Program-made: the position numbers and the translations under genes | The notes under the pieces: generated by a model | The model's input: the letters and a program-made list of their open reading frames with translations, nothing else | Databases searched by the model: none | What the model was told of the DNA's origin: nothing | Part shown: piece by piece, positions 4,039-35,645 of the stretch | Numbering within the stretch: the first letter of the stretch is position 1 | Layout: every line of letters starts with the position of its first letter | Assembly (NCBI GenBank): GCA_014879675.1 | Contig: JACSRQ010000116.1 | Coordinates: 1-35,645, forward strand | Reading direction: 5' to 3' | Length of the DNA: 35,645 nucleotides | From: Ignavibacteria bacterium | Lineage (GTDB): Bacteria > Bacteroidota > Ignavibacteria > Tepidaquicellales > OLB5

Positions 4039-4766
4039 GCATGAAAGAAAGATTAATAGGGCTTTACAAGCTTAACAAAGTTGACCGTGAGCTTCATGAA
4101 CTTATGAGCCTGAGGGGTGATATCCCTTTAAGGATAGAAGACCTTGAATCTGAAAAGCGCGAGCATGATAACCGCGCCGCCGAGCTTCGCAAAGAGCTTG
4201 AAGATATCATTTCGGCAGAAGAAGGCGTGCAGACCGAAAATGATACTTTGCTCGAAAAGATCGAGAAAAACGATGAACGCCTCCGCTCCGGCGCGCTGAA
4301 ATCGAACAAAGAATATGACGCGCTTGCAAAAGAGATCGAAGACGCGAAAGAAAAGATACATCTGAATGAAAAAGCCTCGAAGGAAGATAACTCAGCCCGA
4401 AAAGGTGAAATAGAGAACGAACTCAGCCTGATAGCCGGACAGCTTGATGAAGTTAACGCAGAACTTGAAACAAATAACCATGAGCTGGAAGAGCTTACCA
4501 GGCAAACCGGTGAAGAAGAAAAGGAACTCGTTGCAGAGCGCAATGAAATCCTGAAAAATATAGATCCCGAGGATTTCGCACACTACGAAAGGATCAGCAA
4601 AGTAAAATACGGTGAGGCAGTTGCTATAGTACGCAAAGGTTCATGCCTTGGCTGTTACAGCTCGATCCCGCCGCAAAAGGCTATCGAAATTCGTATGGCG
4701 GAAAAATTCTACGCATGCGAATCATGCGGCAGGATACTTATCGCAGAAGAGCTCATTACCGCGTAA
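4035..4766 (+). CDS. C4-type zinc-ribbon coiled-coil protein (DUF164 / zf-RING_7)
   Basis: Long coiled coil, then CLGCYSSIPPQKAIEIR...FYACESCGRILI; ATG overlaps upstream stop region. Confidence 0.88.
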   Translation: MSMKERLIGLYKLNKVDRELHELMSLRGDIPLRIEDLESEKREHDNRAAELRKELEDIISAEEGVQTENDTLLEKIEKNDERLRSGALKSNKEYDALAKEIEDAKEKIHLNEKASKEDNSARKGEIENELSLIAGQLDEVNAELETNNHELEELTRQTGEEEKELVAERNEILKNIDPEDFAHYERISKVKYGEAVAIVRKGSCLGCYSSIPPQKAIEIRMAEKFYACESCGRILIAEELITA

Positions 4767-7791: not shown

Positions 7792-8343
7792 TCAGTCTAT
7801 AAGAGTTAATCCAAACTCAACCATTTTCTTTTGCATTTTTGCCCGATAAGCCAGATAAGCCCGATAAGCCCGATCAGCCCGATAAGCCAGATCAGCCAGA
7901 TAAGCCCGATAAGCCAGATAAGCCAGATAAGCCCGATCAGCCCGATAAGCCCGATAAGCCCGATCAGCCCGATAAGCCCGATAAGCCCGATCAGCCCGAT
8001 AATTTTTCCTTGCCTCGTTAAGAGCTTCTAAATTTTTCTCGGAGGGATTCCGGACTGCCGCCTGTATTTTTTCAATCAACGGCTTGGAGTCAGTGTCATT
8101 CGGGTATTTTTCGGCAACATACTCAGCCCATAAATCCATAGCATAGCAGGTGTATTTTTTCAATTGCTCTTTGTTGAACATCCTGACAAACAGCCAGTTC
8201 ATCCAGTCGTATCTCTTGCCATCATAGAGCTTTTGAGCGAACTCATTTGCCGGAAGTCCGCACATCATTCTTTTTGTTACCCAATCAGTGCCCTCTTTGC
8301 AGGCATCTTTTGATCTAAGCCATTCTGCTGTAATGATTTTCAT
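7792..8343 (-). CDS. Phage protein with (Y/D)(R/L)A tripeptide repeats
   Basis: 183 aa; unique N-terminus, then 18 x [YD][RL]A encoded by a 9-bp repeat. Confidence 0.75.
   Translation of the reverse strand: MKIITAEWLRSKDACKEGTDWVTKRMMCGLPANEFAQKLYDGKRYDWMNWLFVRMFNKEQLKKYTCYAMDLWAEYVAEKYPNDTDSKPLIEKIQAAVRNPSEKNLEALNEARKNYRADRAYRAYRADRAYRAYRADRAYLAYLAYRAYLADLAYRADRAYRAYLAYRAKMQKKMVEFGLTLID
7841..8002. repeat. 9-bp minisatellite, 18 units of GCC(C/A)GAT(A/C)A
   Basis: 162 bp = 18 x 9, two variable positions per unit, inside the 7792..8343 CDS. Confidence 0.95.
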
Positions 8344-9831: not shown

Positions 9832-10104
9832 TCATAACTTCAATTCCTTCCTTTCTGCTGTTGGTGGAGTGATCCAAATTTTAACATTCTTTTCATCAGG
9901 GAATTCTTTTCGCAAGTCTTTCTTTTCAGCTTTTAATTCTGAATAACCTTCCTTGCCGATCTTGGTATTAATAATCTCAGGCTCTTTGCCTGTCTGCTGC
10001 TTCCGAAGCTGATATATTATTTCCAATTTCAATGATTTTATTGTTTTCAAATTGTACAGGAATTGCAAATACATCAACTCCCATTGTGAACGGGGTCTCG
10101 TCAC
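9832..10104 (-). CDS. Hypothetical phage early protein (start uncertain)
   Basis: 90-aa maximal ORF overlapping 9977..10246 by about 128 nt; true start probably internal. Confidence 0.4.
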   Translation of the reverse strand: MTRPRSQWELMYLQFLYNLKTIKSLKLEIIYQLRKQQTGKEPEIINTKIGKEGYSELKAEKKDLRKEFPDEKNVKIWITPPTAERKELKL

Positions 10105-10246
10105 AGACCTCTTTTACAAATTGCAGGAGCTCAGCGATGTTCTCAAACAGCAGGGCAGATTCCAACTCGTTACCCTGATCGTCATACGCACTTTGGATTT
10201 CGTAAACCCCTTCACGCACAAGCCACATCAGTAAATATTTAATCAT
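9977..10246 (-). CDS. Hypothetical phage early protein
   Basis: 89-aa ORF abutting 10248..10478. Confidence 0.55.
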   Translation of the reverse strand: MIKYLLMWLVREGVYEIQSAYDDQGNELESALLFENIAELLQFVKEVCDETPFTMGVDVFAIPVQFENNKIIEIGNNISASEAADRQRA

Positions 10247-10247
10247 G

Positions 10248-10478
10248 TTACAGCCCCTTTCCTTGTTTTACCATTTCCAGCCTTTTGGCAAGCTGCCTGT
10301 ACTGGTCAATGGTGAGCTTTTCTTTAAGCCGGGATAACCGCCCCCGGGAGATGTCATCCGGAGTTACACGGTCACCAAGCTCTTTGAATGTTTGCAGGGC
10401 AAAATTGAAGAGCCTCTGATTGCTCCAGCCGAGCTTGAACTTAATAGCGGAGACCACGCTCCATACTGGCTTAGCCAT
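10248..10478 (-). CDS. Hypothetical phage early protein
   Basis: 76-aa ORF, overlaps neighbour. Confidence 0.55.
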   Translation of the reverse strand: MAKPVWSVVSAIKFKLGWSNQRLFNFALQTFKELGDRVTPDDISRGRLSRLKEKLTIDQYRQLAKRLEMVKQGKGL

Positions 10479-10797
10479 TATTTGCCTCCTTGTAAAATGG
10501 GCAATCCTTATGCCGATAATTTACATCTGTTATGGGCATACGACCCATTACAGAGCCGCTTAGATGGGAACAGTAAGGAAAGGATACCCGAAAATGCCCT
10601 AAAGGGGTATTATCCCTCTCGGATGCTATATATTCGCACTTGATACAGCATAATGGCTTAGCTTCCCCCGGGTACAGGTTAATTGAGCTATCAATTAATT
10701 GCCTGGTCTGGTTCAGGGTCGCAGGGTCAACTGGCTCAAGCTGAGCGAGAGCCAGTTTAATTACGAATAACTGTTTTGCATCAAGGTCAACGTTCAT
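10471..10797 (-). CDS. Hypothetical Cys-rich phage early protein
   Basis: 108-aa ORF, CCIKC...C...C. Confidence 0.55.
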   Translation of the reverse strand: MNVDLDAKQLFVIKLALAQLEPVDPATLNQTRQLIDSSINLYPGEAKPLCCIKCEYIASERDNTPLGHFRVSFPYCSHLSGSVMGRMPITDVNYRHKDCPFYKEANNG

Positions 10798-10798
10798 A

Positions 10799-11164
10799 TT
10801 ACTTACCCTCCGATAACAACTTTGACTGAGCTATCTCTTTTGGGACTTCCAGTTTCAGCCTTCTTGCTGAAAGAAGCTGGCTCTGGAGCATATCCTGTAC
10901 CTTCTGAAATCTCTTCTTATCGGACGAGCTTTTTTCCTGAACTTTTTTAACCTGCTTGCCTTCGGGAGTTTCAAACATTTTCTTTTTAAGAATCTTTTCC
11001 GCAGTTTTATTATTATTGAGGCTGAAAGCCAGCTTCCCAAGTTCAGTGTAAAGCTCTGTAACTAAGTCAAGGGTCACAGATTCCGGCTTGCTATCTATTT
11101 TACCGCCGCGCAGTGCCTGTTCTACTGTTTTTGTTCCCTTAGTTTCTTTGATCAGTTTTTCCAT
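10799..11164 (-). CDS. Hypothetical coiled-coil phage early protein
   Basis: 121-aa ORF between flanking early genes. Confidence 0.55.
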   Translation of the reverse strand: MEKLIKETKGTKTVEQALRGGKIDSKPESVTLDLVTELYTELGKLAFSLNNNKTAEKILKKKMFETPEGKQVKKVQEKSSSDKKRFQKVQDMLQSQLLSARRLKLEVPKEIAQSKLLSEGK

Positions 11165-11165
11165 T

Positions 11166-11378
11166 TTAGCTCCTTTTGAGATATTTTTTTAATTCTGTAA
11201 AAAGTTCATTGTCAATTGTGTAGCTCACATCATAAGTCCGGTTAAGCATTTTTATATCGATCTTTATGAAACCCTTGTTTAATCCGGTTGTATAACTTTC
11301 TGATTTACCTATGTCATCAAGTATCACCCGAATCAAGTCCTTTGCCTTCACGAGGCACTGTCTATTTCGTTCCCGCAT
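11166..11378 (-). CDS. Hypothetical phage early protein
   Basis: 70-aa ORF overlapping the transposase 3' end. Confidence 0.5.
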   Translation of the reverse strand: MRERNRQCLVKAKDLIRVILDDIGKSESYTTGLNKGFIKIDIKMLNRTYDVSYTIDNELFTELKKYLKRS

Positions 11379-13413
11379 TCTGTATTACCTCTAATACCTC
11401 GTCGTCAGTCATAGGATTTGGGTTGAAAGCCTCTGTGATCACATCCTCAGCGGCAATATGGATCACCTTAGCCGCTTCATTGTACTTGCCTTCTACAATA
11501 TCCTTAGCCTGTTTCTGTATTTTCTTGCGGATGTTTACAAGCTCGTTATTGGAATTAACCTCTAAGCCTGCAATAAGCGGATTCTTGGCAACCACTGCGT
11601 TCACTATTGAGCTTTCGACTGCTTTCAGTGCTTTGCGCTTCTGTTTGTTGAGCCGTACCTGTAAAGCCTTGCGTTCGTCTTTTTCCATCATGCCCAAATT
11701 CACAAGTGTTACTACTAATTGCCCTTTTTCGTAATAGAATTCCTCCCCAGTGTATCTATCCACTCCGCTGATTCGTGTTAAAGCATACAGGTCGAGAGTC
11801 CTTAAATTGTTGGAAAGGTATTTTGCCAAAAACTGTTTGCCGTCAAAAATGTAACTGAAATAATCCTGCGCAACCCATACATGCTCAACGCGGTTGATCT
11901 TAATTTTTACCTGTGCATTGTAGGTGATAATTTTGCTTTGGCAATAAGCTGAGCGGATAGTAGAGTCATCAATCCTTAAAAACTTGTATTCCCGCGAGTG
12001 ATTTTTGAACAGTTCATTGTACGAACACTGTATAAACTTCCCTTTTCTTTCAAGGTCACGCGGACGGTCTAAGAAATACCCTTCAAAATAATTTGTATAG
12101 AACTGTTTCAATTCCTCAATGGTGTTTTCGCACTCTTCAGGTGAGAGCTTTGCGGTGGAGTGCCTGCCGTTTTCCCTCCTGCCGGAAGTAAAGTTCTTAA
12201 TAAACGGAGAGGCTTCGCGTTCCAGTATGGAGTGGAATAGCTCAATGTTGGATTTTTCTGTTGGACTGTAAGCGCGGCAGGGCTCAAATGCCTCGGTAAG
12301 TACTTCATGCTGATATACATCAGGATGCCTTTTCAGGTCTTCTACAAATTTCACAACGTTGCTGGCGGTTACAACCCTGCCGTTATCGAACAGGATAGCC
12401 TTCTTTGGAAGCCCGTAACCCTGAATTGCCTGTATCAGCAAATTAATGATGTCTTCACTGGTCGGGGCTTCGGTTAAAAATACATAAGCAAGGGGCTTCA
12501 TGGTGTACATATCAATACAACTCCACATCTGCAAATCTTCCATTTGAAGGTTTCTAAGCAGTTCATCCCATTGCTCGCCTCCCGAGACGTGAAATTTATG
12601 GTCATCAATAGCCCAATAATCCATGAAATTAATATCATTCGTGAAGGCTCCTTTACTTCGCACTTCAAACTTATCACGCCATGCATTGTAATGGTTAGCC
12701 ATCAATACAACCTGCTTAATGCCATTGTTATCGATCCACTTCAAAAACCACCTGTAAGTTGCCTGCCTCACGGAAGGAACTAATAACTCTACGCGCTGGT
12801 CGTTTCCCTTTTCAAGTTCCAGCTTCACATTGTATAAAAGCAGATCAACAGCATTCCTTGCTGAACTGACCTGCATGTCATCACCCATACCGCCTTCAAG
12901 CGTAGCGTTTGAATAGTAATTATAGCAAATTTCAGGTAGAATATTACTTCTTAAGTCATCATTCTTGAGGATACAATTCCTGACACTTCCCTGATCGCTT
13001 CTCGTTTTGCGCTTTATCTCAAGGTATTGCCCTTTAGCATTTTTAATCCTTAACTCTTCGTATTTTTTCCAACCGTTGGAAAACGAAAAGCCCTTTACCG
13101 GGGGAACGCCAATACTTTGCAGATATTCCTGGCTTTTTTCGATTTGACTATGAATGCTTGCCCATTGAAGTTCTTTACTAAAACCATCAACAATCATTTG
13201 GTAATATTCCGCCTTGTAGGATGCATGTATAGTCTTTAACTCTTTGTTGTTGAGTCGCAGTGTATGGGTTTTGCTGTCAAATGAAAACACGTAAGGCTTC
13301 CGGTACAGTACCTTCCCATCCCTTACCCACCTGTAAAAAGTCCTTTCAGTAATATCATTGGCTGCAATAAATTGCTGTAGGGTTGCGCATTTTGGAAGTT
13401 TTTGTGTGTGCAT
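11362..13413 (-). CDS. MuA-type DDE transposase
   Basis: 683 aa; N-terminal HTH (TLQQFIAANDITERTFYRWVRDGKV); catalytic motifs WAIDDHKFHV (D), ILFDNGRVV (D), YSPTEKSNIELFHSILEREA (E). Confidence 0.9.
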   Translation of the reverse strand: MHTQKLPKCATLQQFIAANDITERTFYRWVRDGKVLYRKPYVFSFDSKTHTLRLNNKELKTIHASYKAEYYQMIVDGFSKELQWASIHSQIEKSQEYLQSIGVPPVKGFSFSNGWKKYEELRIKNAKGQYLEIKRKTRSDQGSVRNCILKNDDLRSNILPEICYNYYSNATLEGGMGDDMQVSSARNAVDLLLYNVKLELEKGNDQRVELLVPSVRQATYRWFLKWIDNNGIKQVVLMANHYNAWRDKFEVRSKGAFTNDINFMDYWAIDDHKFHVSGGEQWDELLRNLQMEDLQMWSCIDMYTMKPLAYVFLTEAPTSEDIINLLIQAIQGYGLPKKAILFDNGRVVTASNVVKFVEDLKRHPDVYQHEVLTEAFEPCRAYSPTEKSNIELFHSILEREASPFIKNFTSGRRENGRHSTAKLSPEECENTIEELKQFYTNYFEGYFLDRPRDLERKGKFIQCSYNELFKNHSREYKFLRIDDSTIRSAYCQSKIITYNAQVKIKINRVEHVWVAQDYFSYIFDGKQFLAKYLSNNLRTLDLYALTRISGVDRYTGEEFYYEKGQLVVTLVNLGMMEKDERKALQVRLNKQKRKALKAVESSIVNAVVAKNPLIAGLEVNSNNELVNIRKKIQKQAKDIVEGKYNEAAKVIHIAAEDVITEAFNPNPMTDDEVLEVIQNAGTK

Positions 13414-18751: not shown

Positions 18752-19243
18752 TTACCTGCGGCCCTTTAAGGTATAATCAATTGTGACTTCATGTATTCCT
18801 ATAAGGTCAGGGGTTGGCGAGACAAATGCAAGCAGCCTGATGGGACACTCATCAACCAATGCATATCCTGAAAGTACTCCGTCAGAAAATTCTGTTATAG
18901 AAGATGTTTTTTCAGTCCCGGTTAAAGCTATAACTGTTGTTTGCAGTACGTTATTGGGATTTAGATTGCTTGCGGTTGTATCACCCTCATTATTTAAAAG
19001 CAGGGAGTCGGGCTCATCCATTATGGAAAATATTTTTATCGCACTGATGAATGATACGGTGTCAACTCTAAAGCCAATTACAATATTACTCCAAACTCCG
19101 TTTAAGGTTACATCAAAAATTTTCGAATCAATTGGGCCCGTTATTGCAATAGTTACGCTTCCGCTTGTCGAGTAGAGTACATCCTGCGAGTAAATAGTGG
19201 TTGAAAACAAAGTCAATATTGCTGCAAAGATTAGTTTTTTCAT
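18752..19243 (-). CDS. Secreted protein of unknown function within head operon
   Basis: MKKLIFAAILTLFSTTIYSQDVLYS: classical Sec signal peptide. Confidence 0.65.
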   Translation of the reverse strand: MKKLIFAAILTLFSTTIYSQDVLYSTSGSVTIAITGPIDSKIFDVTLNGVWSNIVIGFRVDTVSFISAIKIFSIMDEPDSLLLNNEGDTTASNLNPNNVLQTTVIALTGTEKTSSITEFSDGVLSGYALVDECPIRLLAFVSPTPDLIGIHEVTIDYTLKGRR

Positions 19244-27795: not shown

Positions 27796-28305
27796 ATGGC
27801 TTTAGGTAAGAACAGAAACCGCCGTAAAAAATGGTCTGGAGACGATACCAGGATAAAACTCGGGTCAACCTGGACTAATATCGGCAAACAGCTAAAGTGG
27901 ACTCTTGAGTATATGTACGAAGCTGAAGAGGATACTTACGCTGATGGCACAACAGACCTGATAGAAAGCAAACAAAAAGCTGTGTTAAAGATTGAAGGTG
28001 CTCAGACCTCAATCGAGGAGCTTGGTTTGCTTGATCAGCTTATCGCGCTCGGAACTGTTGAGGTTGCTTTATTAGGACACTCGAACATTGACGGCAACGT
28101 GCAGTATTTCTATATCCCCGCTGCCGCGCCTTCAGGCGGATGGTCACTCGAAAGCGGCAACAGGAAAACCGATCTTGTTTTAAGCTGCTCTCCGCAGCCG
28201 GATATATTCGAAACAACCACTGAACAAATGCCGGCTGACTTTGTTGTAGCGGATACAACTTCAACGAACCGTTTCTTCAACATGATGGAAACGGCAATTG
28301 CATAA
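27796..28305 (+). CDS. Probable major tail (tube) protein
   Basis: 169 aa; position upstream of tail chaperone; followed by strong terminator. Confidence 0.55.
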   Translation: MALGKNRNRRKKWSGDDTRIKLGSTWTNIGKQLKWTLEYMYEAEEDTYADGTTDLIESKQKAVLKIEGAQTSIEELGLLDQLIALGTVEVALLGHSNIDGNVQYFYIPAAAPSGGWSLESGNRKTDLVLSCSPQPDIFETTTEQMPADFVVADTTSTNRFFNMMETAIA

Positions 28306-28366: not shown

Positions 28367-29005
28367 ATGAGGCTAAAAAATTTATTTTCATTTAGCGTGT
28401 TTCTTCTGGTCTTCGCATTTGCGCAGATCTGGACTCCCCCTGCCGGTGGTCAGGAGCTTTATCCATCCAAAAAGCTCGCAATTGGGGACTCCTCACTCTG
28501 GGCTAAGACGGGCGGTTACTCCCCCGTGCATGTTGAGCTTGGGGATTCTTCTGATTCGAGAGTAGATACCTTTAAAGTGTATGTTGGTATTCCGAAACCG
28601 GGTACGCTTGCAACTGATACGGGCTATATATGGAAGCAGGTATTCGTAAAAGTTCAAAACGACACGAACACTACAAATCCTGTGGCTGTGTATAAGGATG
28701 TTCTCTTCCCCGGTGATGGGGCAGTAGGTATCTATGAAGTGCTCTACCAGAATCCGGCAGCGGTTAAGATCGTCAGAGTCAATTCCGGCGGCGGGTTAAC
28801 AGGAAACCGTCCAAGCTGGGTATCTATTAAGGGTATAAAGAAATATGGCTCGCTTAATAGAAATGATTTTGGATTGAGAGTGGATTTGAAATCCGCAAAC
28901 AATAAGAAATCGATCTATTCAGGACTTTCCACAATGGTATTGAATGGCTCTAAGAGTTCATTGGTTTACCAGGGTAAGAAGTTCCGGTACAATTTAAGGA
29001 TGTAG
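28367..29005 (+). CDS. Signal-peptide-bearing protein in tail module
   Basis: MRLKNLFSFSVFLLVFAFAQIWTPPAGGQELYPS: Sec-type N-terminus. Confidence 0.65.
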   Translation: MRLKNLFSFSVFLLVFAFAQIWTPPAGGQELYPSKKLAIGDSSLWAKTGGYSPVHVELGDSSDSRVDTFKVYVGIPKPGTLATDTGYIWKQVFVKVQNDTNTTNPVAVYKDVLFPGDGAVGIYEVLYQNPAAVKIVRVNSGGGLTGNRPSWVSIKGIKKYGSLNRNDFGLRVDLKSANNKKSIYSGLSTMVLNGSKSSLVYQGKKFRYNLRM

Positions 29006-29094: not shown

Positions 29095-29616
29095 ATGGAA
29101 CTGATTATAATTATTGTTTTATCCGCTTTAGTAATTACTATCCCTTCAATACTTTACTTTAAATTCAAGAAGCGTTCTGTTCCCGGCAAAGCGAACCTGT
29201 TCAGCAACTCCGGAAGGCGCGAATACCAGTTTGCAAATGGGCTAAAATGCGCAATGGAGTGGCTTACTATTGCACAGGAAAAGGCACTGCTTGACCTTCT
29301 GGTTAAGCTCGATCTTAAAGACTGGAGCGACCTTGCAAATATTGATTTCAATAAGCTGCATAAGGTTCTTGTTGAAGCTGATGGGCTGTGTAAATTTCTC
29401 GATATAATATTGCTGGATAAGGAATTTTCCGGCGCGTATGTTGACCCCGATACATATTACAACACACTTCATACCCCTGAAGTGGAGGTAATTATAAAGG
29501 ATTTTTTTTCTTTAAATCCCTCGAAGCTGGCGATCTTGCAGAACACCGTATTAACTGCGGCTTCACAGATGCTGAATACGATCCCGAGTATGGGTGGGGA
29601 AAAGAAGAGGGATTAA
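29095..29616 (+). CDS. Tail assembly chaperone, short (G-type) product
   Basis: 173 aa immediately upstream of tape measure; overlaps -1 frame extension. Confidence 0.75.
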   Translation: MELIIIIVLSALVITIPSILYFKFKKRSVPGKANLFSNSGRREYQFANGLKCAMEWLTIAQEKALLDLLVKLDLKDWSDLANIDFNKLHKVLVEADGLCKFLDIILLDKEFSGAYVDPDTYYNTLHTPEVEVIIKDFFSLNPSKLAILQNTVLTAASQMLNTIPSMGGEKKRD

Positions 29617-29861
29617 AAACATCAGATTATGACCAGTGGGTTGAGGAAAGAACTCCTGAATTTATATCAAACCACTCACCCCTTGAAAATGAATTGATGT
29701 TGAGAAAACAAGGCTACGCTAAAGATGAGATCGAAAACATGAAAGCAGTTGAGTTACAGAAAATACAGTTTGCTTTATACAAACAAAATTATATGGACTG
29801 GTACGGTTATCAAAAATTTGCTCCGGATAGCGATGCCGGAGATTACGAGGATGAAAACTAA
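29095..29861 (+). CDS. Tail assembly chaperone, -1 frameshifted (GT-type) product, about 255 aa
   Basis: T_TTT_TTT slippery run at 29502-29509; -1 frame open to TAA 29859-29861, encoding FFKSLEAGDLAEHRINCGFTDAEYDPEYGWGKEEGLKTSDYDQWVEERTPEFISNHSPLENELMLRKQGYAKDEIENMKAVELQKIQFALYKQNYMDWYGYQKFAPDSDAGDYEDEN; tape-measure ATG at 29862. Confidence 0.85.
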
Positions 29862-32027
29862 ATGTCAACTTTAGGGGATGTAAAAGTAATTCTTTCTCTC
29901 GACATAGTTCCTTTTACCGAAGGAATGAAATCAGCTTTGCGTATTGGTGAAGCCGGGGGAAAACAATTGCAGGATATTTTATCCCTGAAGCCCGGTGCAT
30001 CTGCCGAGTTCACCGTTTTTGATGCAGAGATAAAAAAGCTTGCCGATACACTCAAAGACGAGGTGGCTCCCGCGGCGCAGGAAACCGAAGCTAAACTTAA
30101 CGATCTTGCCGATCAGCTTGAAAACAATTCCGGCAATGCTTTTAAGACTCTCAACGGCGCGATAAAGCAAGCCAAAGCAGATGTGCTCGAGTTCGGCGCG
30201 AATACAGTTACAGCTTCAGACTCTACTAAAACATACGGGCAGGTGCTCCGCGGACTTGTTGAAGAGAAAAAAATTCTTGCCCGGCAAACCAAACAGGCAG
30301 GTGAACAATTTTCCGGCTTCGCATCCTCACTCGGTATAGCCGGAATGAATGTCCGTAATATCATTACCGATATCCGTAATCTCAACGCTGAAGAGCAATC
30401 AACCTCAGAGTTTGCGATGTCGGTTGCCCAGATCGGTGTAAGTGCTCTTGCCGCCGCACCCGCAATATCGCAGTTAAACATCCAGTGGAAAGCTCTCGGA
30501 GGTACAGGAATGTTCCTCGGCGGCTCGGTACTGCCAACTATCCTTTCGGGAGTGGTAGCTGTTACCTCTGCTTATGGTATGATGATCGGTCATATTGTGC
30601 ATCTTAAGGACGAATTAGGCAGGATAGGTCAGGTTCTTTCCGGGCAGATGTCTTACTGGGATGCGCTGAAAATGAATCTGCGTGATGTTTCTTTCGGGTT
30701 GATAGACCTCACCGATAACGCCGATAATGCCACGCGCTCACTGCAACAGTTGTTATCACTTTCGGTCTCTTCCGGTAAGCAGTTCCAAAACCAGCTTGAC
30801 CTGCAAAATTATGAAGCGAAGTTCCAAAAGGGCGGTGAGTTTTTTAATGCCGGATACTCCAAAGAAGAGATCAAGGCGTTAATTGATAATTACAAAGCTC
30901 TTCAGAATGTTAAAACGGAATACGAACAACAGCAGGAGCGTGAAGATCAGAGCAAAAAGAACCAGACTGAATTAAACTACGAGCAAAGCAAGAAAAAAAA
31001 TTCGGGCAGTTCTTCACGATACAAAACTGAATCAGAGGAGCTCGACCAGGTTGCGCAAAAACAAAAGGAACTTATTAAGATTCAGGCAGAGTATGACGAT
31101 GCCGTAGCGAAGGGATATAAGGGTTATGCTGATGACCTGAAGATCAAGCTCGATGAGATAAAAAAGCAGATCGAGTACCTTATTAATGGTGCTAAAGAAA
31201 AATCTTTTGATGGCTTTGAGCCTAAAAGGATAAAAGATGAAACGGGTGTACTCGACTCAAGCCGTGGCGCGCAATTGATAGCAATTGAAGAGTTGCTCTC
31301 CGAAAAACGGATCGGGCTGATACAGAACGAGTACGATAAAAAGATAGAGCTTATCAATAAAGCATATTTTGAAGAACTCCGGCTCATTAATACACGCGGC
31401 GGAAAGTACCAGGGGGCAACCGATGGACAGCTTGAGCGCGCGAAGGGGATGGTAGAGCTTGAGTTCATGCAGCAAATCGCTGATCTTGATGCCGCAAGGT
31501 GGACAAAGTCAATCAATGGCGCAACACAGGTGTTCCAGATACTTTCTAAAAGACCAACGAACCTGTTTGGTTATTTAGCGCAGGCGATATCAATGGCGGC
31601 AACCTTCGCCTCGCTGATGGGCTTGGCATCCGCGGGCCCGCTTGGTGCAGTTGCCGGGCTGTTCGGCTTTCTTGGAGGCTTGTTTGATGGCGGCGGACAC
31701 ACTGGAGGTACTAATCCAAGGCGCGCTGCCGGAATAGTACACGAACAAGAGTGGGTTGCCCCGGCATGGATGCTTAACAGTATGCCGCAGACCTTTGCAA
31801 TGCTCGAAGGAATGAGGCGTTCAGGTTCAGTTGGAAGGTCAAGCTCTACGCCGGGTTATTATGGCGGCGGAAGGGTTTCTTATCCCTCCAATTATACCAG
31901 TAATACCGGAGACGGGAATATTACTATTGAGCTTTACAGTGAAACAACAGACCACCTTTTGGCTAAAAATACCTCAAGAGGTAACAAAAAATTGTTAAAG
32001 ATAAATACAAAAGCAAAGCTGAAATGA
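29862..32027 (+). CDS. Tail tape measure protein
   Basis: 721 aa, coiled-coil N-terminus, hydrophobic Gly/Ala-rich stretch AAGIVHEQEW region typical of TMP C-termini. Confidence 0.82.
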   Translation: MSTLGDVKVILSLDIVPFTEGMKSALRIGEAGGKQLQDILSLKPGASAEFTVFDAEIKKLADTLKDEVAPAAQETEAKLNDLADQLENNSGNAFKTLNGAIKQAKADVLEFGANTVTASDSTKTYGQVLRGLVEEKKILARQTKQAGEQFSGFASSLGIAGMNVRNIITDIRNLNAEEQSTSEFAMSVAQIGVSALAAAPAISQLNIQWKALGGTGMFLGGSVLPTILSGVVAVTSAYGMMIGHIVHLKDELGRIGQVLSGQMSYWDALKMNLRDVSFGLIDLTDNADNATRSLQQLLSLSVSSGKQFQNQLDLQNYEAKFQKGGEFFNAGYSKEEIKALIDNYKALQNVKTEYEQQQEREDQSKKNQTELNYEQSKKKNSGSSSRYKTESEELDQVAQKQKELIKIQAEYDDAVAKGYKGYADDLKIKLDEIKKQIEYLINGAKEKSFDGFEPKRIKDETGVLDSSRGAQLIAIEELLSEKRIGLIQNEYDKKIELINKAYFEELRLINTRGGKYQGATDGQLERAKGMVELEFMQQIADLDAARWTKSINGATQVFQILSKRPTNLFGYLAQAISMAATFASLMGLASAGPLGAVAGLFGFLGGLFDGGGHTGGTNPRRAAGIVHEQEWVAPAWMLNSMPQTFAMLEGMRRSGSVGRSSSTPGYYGGGRVSYPSNYTSNTGDGNITIELYSETTDHLLAKNTSRGNKKLLKINTKAKLK

Positions 32028-33898: not shown

Positions 33899-34510
33899 TT
33901 GGATAACAGTTCAAAAATAATTCTTGATTTATGTGGTGGGACGGGCTCCTGGTCTAAGCCATATAAAGATGCGGGGTATGATGTTAGAGTGATTACACTT
34001 CCCGAATACGATCTGCAAGATGAAAGAACTGTTGAATACTGTATAAGTTTAAAACCCTATGGAATATTGTTTGCCGTTGACTGTACCGTCTGGGCAAATT
34101 GCGGAGCTTGCTGGTTTAAAGGTAGAACCTCTGACGAAATCTTCTATTACAGCAAATTACTGGTAAAGGGATTGAGAATTATTTATGCAACAAACCCAAG
34201 TTTTTATTGCATAGAAAATCCGGTAGGGAAAATGTCTCAGTTTTTGGGAGTTCCGAATTTTAAATTTGACCCGTTTGAGTTCGCTGGTTATTCAGTTAAT
34301 CCCGAGAGTGAAGCCTATACAAAAAGAACTTATTTGTGGGGCAGATTTACCCCCCCCCCTAAGAACCCAGTTGTATGTTTATTCAAGTCAAATGGAAATT
34401 CCCCAAATGCTTGGTACAATAAAGTAGGTGGAAAATCTCAAAAGACAAAGGAACGCCGGAGTAAAACACCATCAGGTTTTGCAAAAGCATTTTTTCAAGC
34501 AAATCAATAA
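33899..34510 (+). CDS. C5-methyltransferase-like phage protein (Rossmann SAM fold; atypical catalytic motif)
   Basis: ILDLCGGTGSWSKPYKDAGYDV (SAM motif), VDCTVWANCGACWF, CIENPVGKM, YTKRTYLWGRF; start TTG at 33899. Confidence 0.65.
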   Translation: MDNSSKIILDLCGGTGSWSKPYKDAGYDVRVITLPEYDLQDERTVEYCISLKPYGILFAVDCTVWANCGACWFKGRTSDEIFYYSKLLVKGLRIIYATNPSFYCIENPVGKMSQFLGVPNFKFDPFEFAGYSVNPESEAYTKRTYLWGRFTPPPKNPVVCLFKSNGNSPNAWYNKVGGKSQKTKERRSKTPSGFAKAFFQANQ

Positions 34511-35207: not shown

Positions 35208-35645
35208 ATGACAAAGCTCAAAATAATAATTCTTAGTTTATTCATCCTCTGCACGGCGGTATTTGCACAGGAGGAGGTTAACCTACAGCTTGAAAGCTCG
35301 CCGGGCGTGTACATTAATAGTCTGACAAGCTCCAATATCAAATTCCACAGGTCTCCATACGGCTCCGGCGATGAGGTATCCGGTTTGACGGTCACTCATC
35401 CAACGGGAAACACTCTTGGCAATTACACTGTAACAGGCTTTAGCACTTGGGAAAAGGTGCGGCTTTATATAAACAACGTGTATCAGGAATGGTGGGGTAC
35501 GAAACAAGTTGGCAATCCTTCTACAAAGTTCGTTGATGCCACTGGTGATGTTGATGAGTCTATTGATGGAGATAAAACTTATACGGGAATTGTAAACACT
35601 GCTACAATTGTGTCAACGAAACCATATATAAGCACAGATAGTCCG
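35208..35645 (+). CDS. Signal-peptide-bearing protein, incomplete at window end (tail-fibre position)
   Basis: ATG at 35208: MTKLKIIILSLFILCTAVFAQEEVNLQLESSPGVYINSLTSSNIKF..., open to window end. Confidence 0.65.
   Translation, partial: MTKLKIIILSLFILCTAVFAQEEVNLQLESSPGVYINSLTSSNIKFHRSPYGSGDEVSGLTVTHPTGNTLGNYTVTGFSTWEKVRLYINNVYQEWWGTKQVGNPSTKFVDATGDVDESIDGDKTYTGIVNTATIVSTKPYISTDSP

Follow-up and report, generated by a model that had tools for sequence, protein, structure and literature searches.

Probable programmed -1 frameshifting on a conserved T run produces G and G-T tail-assembly chaperone candidates in Ignavibacteria prophages

It is almost certain that the prophage of an Ignavibacteria host derives two helper proteins for tail building from a single gene. 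The window, that is, the whole stretch of 35,645 nucleotides analysed here, has two overlapping reading frames, G and T, just before the tail tape-measure gene. Programmed -1 ribosomal frameshifting from G into T would yield G (173 aa) and a fusion G-T (255 aa), the tail-assembly chaperones of a transposable siphovirus-like prophage, and we hold this reading with high confidence. The slippery site has the right phase, both frames are conserved as protein, the gene order is kept in 12 further loci, and the core of the family has no start codon for a full-length T. The original prediction had proposed a programmed -1 frameshift on a T8 run from a single sequence; the comparison of 13 loci, with the run in each of them, now speaks for the same reading.

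Results

G is a 173-aa frame from the ORF list (29095..29616, + strand), has a family in relatives and is a candidate tail-assembly chaperone. Its codons around position 29500 are GAT TTT TTT TCT TTA AAT, and they contain the heptamer T_TTT_TTT at 29502..29508 (+ strand), inside the T8 run 29502-29509. This is a heptamer of the X_XXY_YYZ kind; its codon phase within G was checked, is as predicted, and is right for a -1 shift. The -1 frame is open from 29481 to 29858, and its stop TAA at 29859-29861 abuts the tape-measure ATG at 29862, exactly where the extension had been expected to end. The T extension (29508..29861, + strand) consists of 117 codons plus the TAA and is conserved as protein. 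A slip on TTT TTT would join 138 residues of G to these 117, and the fusion, estimated earlier at about 255 aa, is computed at 255 aa; the zero-frame tail of G past the slip site has 35 codons. In the window ORF list there is no ATG/GTG/TTG ORF of at least 60 aa on the + strand of 29617-29861, and the -1 extension accounts for this otherwise blank stretch.

How unusual is the T8 site in its own surroundings? As a control, all in-frame X_XXY_YYZ heptamers with Y = A/T were collected from 41 ORFs of the window. There are 45 of them, two of which belong to the T8 site. The others open the -1 frame for at most 43 codons and carry it at most 47 nt beyond a zero-frame stop. The T8 site opens 117 codons in the -1 frame and reaches 242 nt past the zero-frame stop; it is an outlier among the in-frame heptamers of the window.

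The tape-measure protein that follows has 721 aa (29862..32027, + strand) and matches the tape-measure family phrog_24 with E = 6e-4; in the relatives, the next long ORF matches tape-measure PHROGs with E down to 6e-14. Two overlapping ORFs are thus found directly upstream of a tape-measure gene, as in the G/GT class. The ORF at 27796..28305 (+ strand) has no informative PHROG match and is taken, from its position, as a putative major tail protein; in locus L049 the counterpart of this ORF lies directly upstream of G. Between it and G, the window has an ORF with a signal-peptide-like N-terminus (28367-29005), which is absent at the corresponding place in L049. Signal-peptide-like starts are also seen in other ORFs among or beside virion genes, possible tail-fibre genes included (window 18752-19243, - strand, and 35208-35645; L046 9354-10712 and L049 7294-8325, both in reverse-complement coordinates).

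Terminase and major head protein are present in the prophage too. Its portal is of Mu type (162.8 bits against PF06074, over the cut-off) and shares only about 25% identity with those of the nearest cultured phages, FP_Mushu and Rhodobacter RC1; its transposase is likewise of Mu type (phrog_310, 7e-17). By these two matches the element belongs to the Mu-like transposable phages, which have the Portal_Mu portal protein and the Mu-type transposase in one prophage. Since no sheath gene was recognised in the prophage, it looks like a transposable siphovirus. Two further features of the window may be recorded. One is a C10 homopolymer at 34350-34359, a possible phase-variation tract, in an ORF (33899-34510) that reads like a methyltransferase. 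The other is a protein with a long run of repeats of the YRADRAYRAY type in the early region (7792-8343, - strand).

Is the arrangement kept in other prophages? IMG/VR and 297 genomes from the phylum were searched directly with G and T and yielded no relatives; the capsid protein was used as an anchor instead. The anchored search gave eight prophages in the class, and in four of them the ORF before the tape measure is homologous to G. With a G profile, the protein was next detected in 9 of the order's 44 genomes, in one IMG/VR contig (L045) and in three distant loci of the class (L041-L043). Cultured phages searched had no recognisable homologue of G or of the capsid protein. The same arrangement was found in 12 further loci, nine from the same order or the one IMG/VR contig and three more distant. 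With the window there are 13 members, ten of which form the core family; L011, L014 and L016 are the same loci as L022, L019 and L021. L044 was rejected as a member: the match is spurious and lies in the region of a cytochrome-like gene.

Each of the 13 loci carries a slippery run, in frame, at the same pair of Phe codons. It is T8 in the window, L021, L020 and L030, T7 in L022, L019, L013, L029, L031, L045 and L041, T9 in L043, and TTTTTTC in L042. The 12 relatives also have a -1 extension of 92-109 codons upstream of the tape-measure gene, so that the run and the extension are both kept in related prophages. The codons GAT TTT TTT are used in 12 of 12 loci with Asp-Phe-Phe; from local codon use the joint chance of this is 10^-7.6 under independence, a figure which shared ancestry weakens. 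In four loci a TGA of the -1 frame lies directly before the run, so the shift cannot occur further upstream there. In some relatives, as in the window, the tape-measure ATG directly follows the T stop or overlaps it; in others the distance is 17 nt to 1.66 kb. The largest distance, about 1.66 kb between T stop and tape-measure ORF, is in L013 (reverse complement 9865-11528), where the tape-measure ORF is shortened to 524 aa, against 790 aa in the close relative L014; this prophage may be decaying. A fourteenth locus, L015 (4267-4925), shows the same device with another protein: its G, apparently unrelated, contains T_TTT_TTA (TTTTTTA at 4641), and the -1 extension there is followed by a 1007-aa ORF.

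Could the frame break be an artefact, the true run being T9 and the gene one continuous frame of 255 aa? The window comes from a fragmented assembly of 255 contigs, and homopolymers are error-prone. Such an indel is contradicted by the zero-frame stretch that follows the run (LNP..., 22-40 codons in core members): this tail is conserved between loci, for example with 26/40 and 14/25 identical residues, and the frame breaks at the same codon in all the independent assemblies. The -1 extension is conserved in the same nucleotides as this tail, again across independent assemblies. The coding nature of the extension is also borne out by the closest pair, L013 and L019. Past the G stop they differ at 6, 7 and 23 sites of the first, second and third -1-frame codon positions, with dN 0.16 and dS 2.3 (dN/dS about 0.07); more diverged pairs are near saturation. 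This points to protein-level constraint on both products, as in the G/GT class.

Another possibility is that T is a gene of its own, with its own initiation or with re-initiation after G, and the overlap of the G stop with T is what coupled genes would show. Such a gene would need an early start codon, but the first ATG/GTG/TTG lies beyond the conserved N-terminal part of the -1 ORF in the ten core loci, where it leaves at most 27-59 of 92-117 codons (55 in the window). In four loci, moreover, the -1 ORF begins exactly at the T run. By this comparison T has no independent start in the core family; the distant L041 and L043, the only members with start codons early enough for most of the -1 ORF, are ambiguous. 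Since both frames are conserved and no full-length start exists in the core, the indel is effectively excluded and a separate T gene is very unlikely. Homologues with a separate start and without a slippery run, which would have spoken against the original prediction, were looked for among the 13 members, and none was found.

What might stimulate the shift? An internal Shine-Dalgarno-like site, GGAGGT (29484..29489, + strand), lies 12 nt 5' of the run, and the 16S 3' end of the same genus is CCTCCTTT. SD-like pairing upstream of the run is stronger than in synonymous shuffles, with z -2.3 in the window and a mean z of -0.97 across loci (Stouffer -3.5, the loci not being independent); L020 and L030 are without the element. 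SD sites are present in about a third of the window genes. GGAGGT is thus a plausible stimulator by its sequence and place. A 3' stimulatory structure conserved across the family was considered and rejected. Folding downstream beats shuffled sequence in five loci (strongly in L022 (=L011), L021 (=L016) and L030, moderately in L013 and L019 (=L014)), and no structure better than shuffled was found in the window, L020, L029 or L031. The window has a weak 7-bp stem (29523..29564, + strand; 29523-29529 with 29558-29564), which does not exceed shuffled sequence (z about 0.3).

Three codons downstream of the run there is a second in-frame heptamer, T_TTA_AAT (29511..29517, + strand), found in several, not all, relatives. 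The shift might occur mainly there, with T8 as a by-product of the protein sequence; the heptamer has the right phase, and the weak stem that begins at 29523 would follow after 5 nt. It is missing in L013 (ATC TTA AAT), L030 (TCA TTA AAT) and L022 (ATT TTA TCT), but the T run is universal. We consider this quite improbable and the second heptamer a secondary site at most.

The same two proteins would also arise by transcriptional slippage, if RNA polymerase added one U on T8 and put some mRNAs in the T frame. A homopolymer of eight is long enough for polymerase slippage to be possible, and T8 or T9 runs, which would suit it, are found in 5 of 13 loci. Some IS elements and type III secretion genes make use of slippage of this kind (PMC5009743). 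Yet seven loci have T7 only and one has T6 followed by C, too short for efficient polymerase slippage by current knowledge. The phase of the run always fits tandem tRNA slippage, though the DFF motif alone would fix that phase, and the upstream SD-like element fits ribosomal shifting. Polymerase slippage is the weaker explanation because more than half of the loci have T7 or less, and we regard it as unlikely.

To what family do G and T belong? Neither has a match in Pfam or PHROG, and no sequence similarity to any described chaperone family, lambda G/T included, was detectable. A fold search with the AlphaFold2 model of G gave nothing in the PDB; in BFVD its matches, none of them significant, include several annotated as tail assembly chaperone. 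The structure model of T is of low confidence and its fold matches are meaningless. As judged by these searches, G and T are an undescribed protein family, with a mechanism that is itself of the textbook kind.

The G of the window starts with a membrane-helix-like segment, residues 2-23 followed by KFKKR (29098..29163, + strand), seen in hydropathy and in the AlphaFold2 model, which has a helix at 2-23. Its Kyte-Doolittle value is 2.72 over 19 residues; values of 2.5-2.7 over 19 residues are reached in the window, L029, L031 and L045, and at most 1.7 in the other members. These four form one clade (100/99), and the hydrophobic helix followed by basic residues is common to their G proteins only. 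No ATG/GTG/TTG separates the helix from the conserved core in the window, so the two must be translated together; at this place L029 has ATGs and L045 a GTG. The positive-inside rule would put the core on the cytoplasmic side. It is possible, though somewhat less than an even chance in our judgement, that in this clade the N-terminal helix anchors G, and with it G-T, in the inner membrane while the core lies in the cytoplasm, and that tail assembly starts at the membrane.

Discussion

Programmed -1 ribosomal frameshifting would work as follows. Most ribosomes would read through to 29616 and make G of 173 aa. A minority would slip one base back, the two tRNA-Phe on TTT TTT of T_TTT_TTT re-pairing with TTT TTT, and would continue in the -1 frame to 29861 to make G-T of 255 aa; the internal GGAGGT might stimulate the shift. 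The site is most simply read as one where two tRNA-Phe slip in tandem on U_UUU_UUU. The junction peptide would be ...KDFFFFKS... / ...KDFFFFKSLEAGD... for a slip at the first heptamer and ...KDFFSLNS... / ...KDFFSLNSLEAGD... for one at the second heptamer, T_TTA_AAT. If the two proteins act as gpG and gpGT do in lambda, G would coat the tape-measure protein encoded by the next gene, and the rarer G-T would recruit the major tail protein. The shifting on the ribosome, its efficiency and the chaperone roles are what we infer from the sequences. In E. coli constructs U_UUU_UUU is less shift-prone than A_AAA_AAG (PMC5009743), so a low fraction of G-T is expected, as in lambda, where G to GT is about 30:1 (PMC5009743).

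A conserved frameshift of dsDNA tailed phages has been described (Xu et al. 2004, as cited in PMC2628397; reviewed in PMC5009743). The system here is likened to lambda G/GT for its gene order, for the phase of its slip site and for the constraint on both products. In both, two overlapping frames lie ahead of the tape-measure gene and behind tail genes, here a putative major tail protein gene, with a slippery run near the end of the first frame, a -1 shift, and a fusion that ends at the tape-measure start. The identity as G/GT tail chaperones, which had been predicted, thus draws its support from gene order and the shift; similarity to lambda G/T is not detectable. Unlike lambda, the run here is T_TTT_TTT, the zero-frame tail after the slip site has 35 codons, the window clade has a membrane-helix-like N-terminus, and no chaperone-family similarity is seen. 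The Mu-like phages are a second system for comparison. A -2 shift was reported for Mu and none was found in KS10 (PMC2628397), whereas the shift here is -1, and no sheath gene was recognised.

The third system for comparison is E. coli dnaX, in which an SD-like element about 10-14 nt upstream precedes a phased homopolymeric slippery run, the same order of elements as here. It differs in that the run here is U and not A_AAA_AAG, that the window has no clear 3' stem-loop, and that the gene is a phage structural gene. In the literature we found no relevant paper on a T7 slippery run in tail genes or on membrane-anchored chaperones; if the membrane-helix-like N-terminus is real, it would put tail assembly in an unusual place.

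The finding extends the tail-chaperone frameshift to divergent Ignavibacteria prophages, and none of the family libraries searched contains their G and T. Automatic gene prediction is likely to overlook T throughout this set, and the alignment with its conserved slippery site is supplied as an aid to their annotation.
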